The notes under the pieces: model-generated
Databases searched by the model: none
Told to the model about the DNA's origin: nothing
Seen by the model: the letters and a program-made list of their open reading frames with translations, nothing else
Shown here: positions 30,443 to 31,922 of the stretch, in pieces
Layout of the letters: each line of letters starts with the position of its first letter
Numbering within the stretch: the stretch's first letter is position 1
Made by a program: the position numbers and the translations under genes
Assembly (NCBI GenBank): GCA_023151115.1
Contig: JAKLJP010000012.1
Span: forward strand, 141,991-205,990
DNA from: Anaerolineae bacterium
GTDB taxonomy: Bacteria > Chloroflexota > Anaerolineae > 4572-78 > J111
DNA: 64,000 bases
Direction of reading: 5' to 3'

Positions 30443-31232
30443 TTTTCTAAAAGACAAAAAAACCATCATCGGCATGATCCATGTCGAGCCGCTGCCGGGC
30501 ACGCCGAAACATCACGGCCAAATGCTGGAAATCATCACCCGAGCCAAAGTGGAGGCGGTGATGTATAAAGAGGCCGGGGTGGATGCGATTGCCATTGAGA
30601 ATATGCACGACATCCCCTACCTCAACAAACAAGTTGGGCCGGAGATTACGGCAGCCATGGCGGTGGTTGGCTATGAGGTCAAAAATGCCACCGGGCTGCC
30701 GTGCGGAGTGCAGGTGCTGGCCGGAGCCAACAAAGAAGCCCTGGCCGTGGCCCTGGCCGCCGGGCTGGACTTCATCCGGGCCGAGGGCTTTGTGTTCGGC
30801 CACGTGGCCGATGAGGGCTACATTGACGCCAATGCCGGGGAAACACTGCGCTACCGGCGACAAATTGGGGCGGAACACATCCTGGTGCTGACCGACATCA
30901 AGAAAAAACATTCAGCCCATGCCGTGACCGCCGATGTGGATATCATCGAAACGGCCCACGCCGCCGAATTTTTCCTGAGCGATGGGGTGATTGTGACCGG
31001 GGTGGCGACCGGGCAGGAGGCTAGCCTGGAAGAACTGCAAGCGGTCAAAGCCGCCGTTAAAATCCCGGTGTTGGTAGGTTCTGGGGTAACGACGGATAAT
31101 GTGGATCGCTATTTGGCCGTGGCCGATGCATTAATTATCGGCTCGTACTTCAAGGTCAACGGCCACTGGACGCAGACGGTGGATTTTGAGCGGGTGAAGG
31201 GGTTTATGGAGAAAGTGAAGGCATGGAAGTAG
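30435..31232 (+). CDS. BtpA/SgcQ-family TIM-barrel protein
   Basis: A 265-residue BtpA-family protein (IIGMIHVEPLPGTP at the start; YKEAGVDAIAIENMHDIPY; GVQVLAGANKEALAVALAAGLDFIRAE; VLVGSGVTTDNVDRYL near the end). The founding member stabilises photosystem I in cyanobacteria, but most relatives are in non-phototrophs and probably bind a phosphosugar or nucleotide-like ligand. There is no sign of photosynthesis genes here. The 8-base overlap with sthA indicates one operon. Its TAG stop is part of a GGAGTAGG-type array. Confidence 0.85.
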   Translation: MNNFLKDKKTIIGMIHVEPLPGTPKHHGQMLEIITRAKVEAVMYKEAGVDAIAIENMHDIPYLNKQVGPEITAAMAVVGYEVKNATGLPCGVQVLAGANKEALAVALAAGLDFIRAEGFVFGHVADEGYIDANAGETLRYRRQIGAEHILVLTDIKKKHSAHAVTADVDIIETAHAAEFFLSDGVIVTGVATGQEASLEELQAVKAAVKIPVLVGSGVTTDNVDRYLAVADALIIGSYFKVNGHWTQTVDFERVKGFMEKVKAWK

Positions 31233-31335
31233 GTAGTAAGGAGTAGGGGGTGAAGATGGAAGAATAGAAGATGACTATCCACCACGCTTCGCGTCTATCC
31301 TCCCTTACTCCCTTACTCCCTACTTCCTACTCCCG
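31228..31335. repeat. Paired inverted GGAGTAGG-type arrays between convergent genes
   Basis: AAGTAGGTAGTAAGGAGTAGG (31227-31247) faces CTCCCTTACTCCCTTACTCC (from 31300) and CCTACTTCCTACTCCC (about 31319-31334), so the transcript ends of the BtpA-family and cyclophilin genes can form a long hairpin. The TAG at 31230-31232 is the BtpA-family stop codon. Confidence 0.75.
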
Positions 31336-31339
31336 TATT

Positions 31340-31828
31340 TCAGCTTTCGGTAATGATAACCTCGTTCATGACATCCCCATTTTTGAGGGAATTGACCACA
31401 TTCTGGCCAGAGGTGACTTTGCCAAAAACGGTGTGTTTGCCGTCGAGGTGGGGCTGCGGGCCGTGGCAGATGAAGAACTGCGAGCCGTTGGTGTTGGGGC
31501 CGGCGTTGGCCATGCTCAGGCTGCCGGTTTCGTGCTTTTGTTTAGAGTTACCTCGTGTTTCATCCTCAAAGCGGTAGCCGGGGCCGCCCCGCCCGTCGCC
31601 GTTGGGGTCGCCGCCCTGGGCCATAAAATTGTTGATGACCCGGTGAAAGGTTAGCCCGTTGTAAAAGCCATCGCGGGCCAAAAAGACAAAGTTGTTGACC
31701 GTTTTGGGCGTATCGGCGGCAAACAGGTCGAGCTGAATATCGCCTTTGTCTGTTTTGATGGTCGCCTGGTAACTCTTTTTGGGGTCAATGACCATATCCG
31801 GGTATTTGCTGTATTGTTTTTTTGTCAC
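31340..31828 (-). CDS. Cyclophilin-type peptidyl-prolyl cis-trans isomerase
   Basis: A 162-residue cytoplasmic cyclophilin that speeds proline isomerisation during folding. It carries the active-site run FHRVINNFMAQGGD (Arg, Phe, Gln), GSLSMANAGPNTNGSQFFI and the HLDGKHTVFGKV segment. There is no signal peptide. It is flanked on both sides by GGAGTAGG-type hairpins, which may insulate it from the glycan cluster behind it. Confidence 0.95.
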   Translation of the reverse strand: MTKKQYSKYPDMVIDPKKSYQATIKTDKGDIQLDLFAADTPKTVNNFVFLARDGFYNGLTFHRVINNFMAQGGDPNGDGRGGPGYRFEDETRGNSKQKHETGSLSMANAGPNTNGSQFFICHGPQPHLDGKHTVFGKVTSGQNVVNSLKNGDVMNEVIITES

Positions 31829-31852
31829 AAAAAATCTCCTTTATATAAATTT

Positions 31853-31922
31853 GGGAGTAGGGAGTAGGAAGTAAGAAGTAAGGGAAAAACCTCCCCTACT
31901 CCCTACTCCTTACTCCCTACTC
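31853..31922. repeat. Paired inverted GGAGTAGG-type arrays overlapping a stop codon
   Basis: GGGAGTAGGGAGTAGGAAGT and on to AAGGG (31853-31884) faces CCTCCCCTACTCCCTACTCC and on to CTACTCC (31890-31922) across an A5 loop. The leftward TAG (31919-31917) of the nucleotide-sugar dehydrogenase is one unit of the array. It could serve as a terminator for the glycan operon. Confidence 0.8.

Follow-up and report, generated by a model that had tools for sequence, protein, structure and literature searches.

Why do the stop codons of several genes in one stretch of an Anaerolineae genome lie within tandem arrays of a G-rich heptamer? The stretch analyzed (64,000 nucleotides, hereafter the window) had been described in a first-pass annotation as carrying three genes, for a DUF2905 protein, a BtpA-family protein and a nucleotide-sugar dehydrogenase, in which the TAG stop is the first TAG of a GGGAGTA-type array read in the sense direction. 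We saw this arrangement at all three genes. The two-unit pattern GGGAGTAGGGAGTA had 11 matches in the window with at most two mismatches; shuffled sequences averaged 0.2. The window arrays are thus not due to chance.

Arrays and hairpins at gene ends in the window

The BtpA-family gene (265 aa; 30435-31232, + strand) ends with a TAG at 31230-31232, contained in a G-rich arm (31224-31248, +) that begins within the last codons of the gene. The stop of the dehydrogenase gene (449 aa; 31917-33266, - strand; TAG at 31917-31919) is also contained in a G-rich arm (31894-31924, -), and that of the DUF2905 gene (74 aa; 21954-22178, - strand; TAG at 21954-21956) in a single G-rich heptamer array (21928-21958, -). 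Two of the three sites had been said to have a facing inverted array that makes a hairpin, consistent with what we found. The btpA arm is faced by a C-rich partner at 31303-31334, and the hairpin within 31224-31340 had an RNA fold z of -6.2; the dehydrogenase arm is faced by a partner at 31852-31883 (+), and the hairpin within 31845-31928 had a z of -8.4. The DUF2905 array has no facing inverted array (z of +0.6). Read on the - strand, the btpA partner arm is itself a G-rich array, in sense to a gene at 31340-31828 (-), whose product we take to be peptidyl-prolyl isomerase-like (PPIase) and whose start lies 23 nt from the dehydrogenase partner arm. The TGA stop of this gene (31340-31342) is outside the array, 5 nt before it. 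The annotation's statement that every sense array at a 3' end supplies the stop was therefore too broad, applying to three of the four in the window.

All three proteins have the length that is commonest among the homologues listed: 74 aa in 67 of 120 for DUF2905, 265 aa in 50 of 120 for BtpA, and 449 aa in 39 of 120 for the dehydrogenase, the window's own protein included. The window BtpA ends in VKAWK, versus VNKLR in its closest homologues, which are of equal length; since the last residues changed and the length did not, the array seems to have been inserted in the last codons without shifting the stop. In another BtpA homologue (P0058) the C-terminus is lengthened to 280 aa by ITNCELRITKEEEVRNS, which resembles read-through into another heptamer array.

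The window elements are located between protein genes, outside the 23S rRNA gene. An Rfam search of window positions 21500-32500 gave no matches at the gathering score, and the window contains no gene of the S23 family (PF05635), which is treated below. The window also has other short arrays. Those of AACGTTG and GGTTGGAG (7- and 8-base units; 19066-19107 and 20139-20177) are in the frame of a gene at 18967-20943 (-) and translated as repeats, e.g., QPSNPPTLQPSN and FNVQPSTFNV. The others are GATTTCA (16340-16384) and TTGCGTG (21881-21900), both of period 7, GGAAGATT (25739-25789; periods 8 and 16) and TCTCTGTGTT (26035-26073; period 10).

Position and orientation of arrays relative to stop codons

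A scan with the BtpA alignment identified two relatives, the metagenome-assembled genomes H5_CFX5 (G001; BtpA 95% identical) and H5_CFX7 (G002; 88%). Window and G001 DNA were 88-94% identical in 13 of 14 syntenic blocks, and 70% in one. Allowing one mismatch, GGAGTAGGGAGTA had 302 matches in the whole G001 genome and 230 in G002, versus 44 and 55 for the pattern written backwards; a 13-base pattern had 143 exact matches in G001, versus 4 when reversed. We sampled 1.08 contiguous Mb of G001, 39 more G001 loci, 41 G002 loci and the window, and called the genes of the sampled loci with a purpose-built codon-bias caller. The targeted loci were taken from the pattern matches listed (13-base exact; one-mismatch), with 100 of the 143 G001 places listed, and the G002 sample does not extend to the places listed on C6, C7, C9 and C10 or past 785 kb on C5. 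Defining an array as at least three AGTA units gave 136 arrays, window included, 17 of them within genes. On contig G001:C1 this definition found 14 arrays in the real sequence and 9 in the reversed one, and part of the arrays from the contiguous stretch may therefore reflect chance or other repeats rich in purines; a looser detector was discarded, its control on reversed sequence giving 15 against 19 real at a threshold of 15.

For 59 of the sampled arrays there was a sense gene on the G-rich side, at least eight junctions being counted here in two genomes. Across window and relatives, 55 of these 59 begin between -23 and +13 nt from the end of the stop codon, and the remaining four at 85, 132, 147 and 498 nt; the stop is contained in the array in 36. 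Such a scan had been proposed by the annotation as a check against random placement, and its expectation of non-random placement was borne out. Among the 23 arrays that begin after the stop (distance d of zero or more), 19 are within 13 nt, while uniform intergenic placement would put about 3% in the interval of 0 to 13 nt, which rules out random placement. In the window and the contiguous G001 sample combined, the count of close arrays is 12 of 12. Short operon gaps are likewise ruled out as the cause of this closeness, since 11 of the 13 arrays with the next gene at least 100 nt away are still close to the stop. An artefact of reading to the first available stop fails, taken alone, for the arrays located downstream of the stop.

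Of the 55 close arrays, 19 have the stop outside; in the 36 that contain it, the stop is the first TAG or TAA of the array 24 times, the second 4 times, the third 7 times and the fourth once. The 24 of 36 exceed one third (P = 4e-5), although the first such triplet may be a native stop at the array edge. Within arrays the stops are 28 TAG and 8 TAA; just outside they are 11 TAA, 5 TGA and 3 TAG, and hairpins of other heptamer families also occur at TAA and TGA stops. TAG is favoured at arrays and is not required. The proposal that the repeat spreads to, or is selected at, TAG stops stands as regards non-random placement at stops, and fails as regards specificity for TAG: the apparent target looks like the gene 3' end, with no TAG-specific repeat. 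The TAG bias stems at least partly from the repeat unit, since any frame read through it meets a TAG or TAA in at most 21 nt.

The arrays also follow an orientation rule. None of the 57 C-rich array ends facing a stop is within 14 nt of it, and 16 of the 17 arrays inside genes run antisense, a direction in which the units have no stops. Where the G-rich end, which for the upstream gene is the far end of the C arm, faces a start (n = 60), 34 arrays are within 27 nt of it. All 33 opposed pairs of neighbouring arrays are G-first. A C-rich partner within 150 nt was present for 36 of the 55 close sense-stop arrays; with the pattern used, the other 19, DUF2905 included, had none in that distance. 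No run of TTTTT was found within 15 nt after the C arm in any of the 36 paired hairpins, ruling out intrinsic terminators.

The btpA junction itself differs among the three genomes. In G001 the gene has the native KLR end and a TAG stop, with no array there, and in G002 an array is present and the stop is TAA. Downstream of G001 btpA (L001, ~6808-6838) there is another repeat (ACAGATGAACACAGATGGACACAGATA) in place of the GGGAGTA hairpin of the window.

S23 genes between inverted heptamer arms

One arm pair of G001 encloses a 120-aa ORF that matches PF05635 (S23, or 23S-rRNA intervening-sequence protein; E = 1.7e-33). The ORF also matches PF22296 (bAvd; E = 1.6e-5, below the curated cut-off) and is related to the solved structure 2GSC, that of the Xanthomonas protein XCC0516 (E = 1.1e-20, five chains). 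There were 23 PF05635 matches in G001 and 5 in G002, and such matches were present in 48 of 151 sampled genomes of Chloroflexota, 75 of 99 of Bacteroidota and 60 of 96 of Patescibacteria (group names inferred).

We searched for complementarity between the 5' and 3' flanks of S23 genes at the 102 usable of 118 loci (positive at SW>=16), with shifted positions of the same loci as controls; for genomes other than G001 and G002, the locus used is in most cases the copy that scored best in its genome. Inverted flanks were found at 70 of the 102 loci versus 13 of 406 controls, the other 32 loci being below the threshold. The association is present in three bacterial groups: 17 of 18 loci versus 0 of 71 controls in G001, 3/5 versus 0/20 in G002, 16/26 versus 7/104 in other Chloroflexota, 18/29 versus 3/115 in Bacteroidota and 16/24 versus 3/96 in Patescibacteria. 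The 5' flank has a clear short period (>=0.7) at 51 of the 102 loci versus 35 of 406 controls, and the best period was 7 in 41 of the 51. Such a period is found at 13 of 18 loci in G001, 4 of 5 in G002 and 15 of 26 in other Chloroflexota, and at only 10 of 29 in Bacteroidota and 9 of 24 in Patescibacteria.

The S23 elements also lie at stops. At 59 of the 70 flank-positive loci, an ORF of 90 aa or more lies upstream and has its stop at the 5' arm (from 40 nt before the arm to its end), versus 99 of 1467 random positions. In 62 of the 70, the 3' arm has begun by 40 nt past the stop of the S23 gene. The arm units vary (GGGAGTA, AGTAGAC, GTCAGTA, GGCTAAG, AGTGTCA and others). Arm similarity is mainly a matter of close S23 kinship: similar arms were found in 20% of the 50 pairs of S23 proteins with at least 60% identity, some of which are orthologous sites, in 1% of the 653 pairs at 45-60%, and in 0.0 (rounded) of the 2700 other pairs. 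At one G001 locus (L234) the S23 gene has a hairpin on either side, and its own TAA stop is within the second array. Elsewhere in G001 (G001:C5:632014-633198), a reverse transcriptase match stands beside a weak PF05635 match (E = 6e-4), and the flanks (L248) have no inverted arrays (SW of 10); this is perhaps a diversity-generating retroelement (DGR) with its Avd.

Comparing G001 junctions with those of G002 or the window, we found an array or hairpin in both at most of them; in a set of 14 such junctions, 3 carry different heptamer families in the genomes compared. Seven S23 sites of G001 could be traced to G002. Similar S23 proteins are present in both genomes at two of them, 82% identical in one case (L231/L224) and 85% in the other (L229/L226, traced by the upstream flank only). 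At a third (L233/L230), one and the same stop carries two S23 genes whose products have no mutual blastp hit and whose arms differ. The remaining four have no S23 gene at the orthologous junction in G002. At three of them (L234/L217, L227/L344 and L238/L349), that stop still has a hairpin, belonging to the same family or a related one, so that S23-bearing and S23-less states occur at the same junction in two relatives. The fourth (L223/L345) has neither an S23 gene nor a heptamer hairpin in G002; by eye, the G002 junction has another inverted repeat, CACCCTTCGATAC ... TATCGAAGGGTG. One GGGAGTA site of G001 (L173/L195) looks simply empty in G002, where the native end has AGTAG, common to the array, and the C-terminal length is equal in both genomes. 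We found no insertion with target duplication, as expected of a MITE or insertion sequence, at the compared junctions, where the array sequence hides the borders. None of the window hairpins was traced to an S23-bearing orthologue.

Explanations and relation to known systems

We consider it probable that the arrays are arms, or single arms, of hairpin elements that are S23-less relatives of an S23 family settling at gene 3' ends. A complete element would consist of an inverted heptamer array, a PF05635 gene (S23, a four-helix-bundle, Avd-like protein) and a second inverted array, with the G-rich arm at the stop and the C-rich arm some tens of bases further, often near the next start. We infer a mobility driven by S23: the elements would move or be copied, and S23 may recognise its own arms and take part in the movement. 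Landing on or just before a stop would be harmless because the sense arm has a stop in every frame. The stem in the transcript would be tolerated or cut by RNase III, by analogy with the intervening sequences (IVSs) of 23S rRNA, which this enzyme cuts.

The strongest rival, in our judgement unlikely, is that these are 3' hairpins serving the host in mRNA processing or stability and selected at gene ends, where the fold matters and the heptamer sequence is free. Its strength is that the hairpin persists through sequence change, staying in place at the three junctions where the heptamer family differs, and the fold scores of the two window hairpins fit it. Against it, the hairpins are not intrinsic terminators, 19 of the 55 close arrays have no partner arm, and both the S23 genes between arms and the two different S23 genes at one stop are left unexplained. 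Slippage could also produce arrays anywhere, with selection sparing sense arrays only in the last codons, as elsewhere they would truncate the protein; no mobile element would then be needed. This agrees with the stops that the sense unit has in all frames within 21 nt and with the antisense orientation of in-gene arrays, and a similar point is made for TAACTGA in the available part of MacGregor 2015 (PMC4679880). Arrays wholly after the stop escape such a filter, however, and yet are crowded within 13 nt of it. Furthermore, the 16 in-gene antisense arrays lie in genes of 298 to 1149 codons, so that by simple proportion the last 8 codons should receive far fewer than one sense array, whereas 36 hold the stop. 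Slippage alone makes neither paired inverted arms nor a link to S23. This explanation is already hard to hold, and we regard it as improbable.

Two other candidates concern the mover. One is a Y1 (RAYT) transposase, as for palindromes of the REP type. In its favour, GTAG REPs likewise border the 3' ends of genes, where they frequently provide the TAG stop (PMC3733652, available part), and Y1 matches were present in all seven genomes with at least six S23 matches versus 36 of the 80 searched overall (tally by eye). The two examined of the three G001 Y1 matches have, by eye, their own different palindromes and no heptamer arrays, and we find this candidate very improbable. There is even less reason to favour copying driven by reverse transcriptase, with S23 as a relative of the DGR accessory protein Avd. 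The bAvd match of the 120-aa ORF, although below the cut-off, points this way, as do the description of PF05635 as Avd-like in the available part of PMC10053308 and the RVT_1 matches in 5 of the 7 S23-rich genomes (36 of 80 overall); but G020 and G030, with 11 and 22 S23 matches, have no RVT_1 match, either genome being possibly incomplete. As movers, neither RAYT nor reverse transcriptase is supported.

The S23-related hairpin elements that we favour share several features with the IVSs of 23S rRNA (e.g., in Coxiella burnetii). Some IVSs lack the S23 ORF; others have it, as does the complete form here, and IVSs likewise have terminal inverted repeats that form a long stem. According to the available part of PMC4990558, the Coxiella IVS has heptameric direct repeats (GACAGAT) beside its S23 ORF, a trait common to the elements here. 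Inverted repeats predicted to form a stem were found at two of the three named window sites and at 70 of the 102 S23 loci, and S23 genes between arms in the relatives, with none in the window. Unlike IVSs, the elements here sit between protein genes at stops and not in rRNA helices, the S23 forms mostly behind ORFs, and they include S23-less hairpins and reach many copies in some genomes. We describe them as working like IVSs and do not class them as members.

Part of the pattern was already known. G-rich heptamer arrays near or overlapping the coding-strand stop have been described in Xanthomonas (GGGAATC) and Nostoc (GGGGA(C/T)T), with many inverted pairs in the former and few in the latter; they resemble ours in being G-rich, stop-proximal and present as inverted pairs, and were interpreted as quadruplex formers generally unassociated with mobile elements. 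Unlike here, no link to S23 is described in the available part of that report (PMC4692102). GTAG REPs are also palindromes that adjoin gene 3' ends and often give the TAG stop (PMC3733652, available part), being 20-40 bp palindromes, unlike the tandem heptamers here. In REP/RAYT systems the same palindrome flanks the RAYT gene of the genome; the Y1 (RAYT-like) transposase genes at G001:C1:375145-375486 and 618175-618513 are flanked by non-heptamer palindromes of their own. The TAACTGA heptamers of Beggiatoaceae are direct repeats with stops in all frames. Most lie shortly before a start, some overlap an upstream stop, and they were interpreted as possible translational control sites; S23 is without mention in the available part of that report (PMC4679880). 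The reverse complement of TAACTGA, TCAGTTA, is present in the 5' arm of one S23 element here (L268).

What is new is that heptamer hairpins at stop codons are tied to S23 genes, and this across phyla: a literature search that covered few subscription journals gave no report of S23 genes linked with heptamer arrays placed at stops. The finding bears on the role of PF05635 proteins and on the origin of 23S rRNA IVSs. If inverted heptamer arrays at stops generally bracket the S23 genes found outside rRNA, repeat literatures that are now separate would come together as a single testable element, the arms would be the likely nucleic-acid partner of S23, and a way of remodelling gene 3' ends without a frameshift would come to light. 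More tentatively, there may be a family of small mobile elements spanning multiple phyla, each made of inverted heptamer arrays around an Avd-like S23 gene and homing to the 3' ends of genes, where its arm supplies or keeps the stop, with a separate heptamer for each S23 lineage; the cyanobacterial, Xanthomonas and Beggiatoa heptamers could then be S23-less remains, and the 23S rRNA IVSs a branch settled in rRNA.
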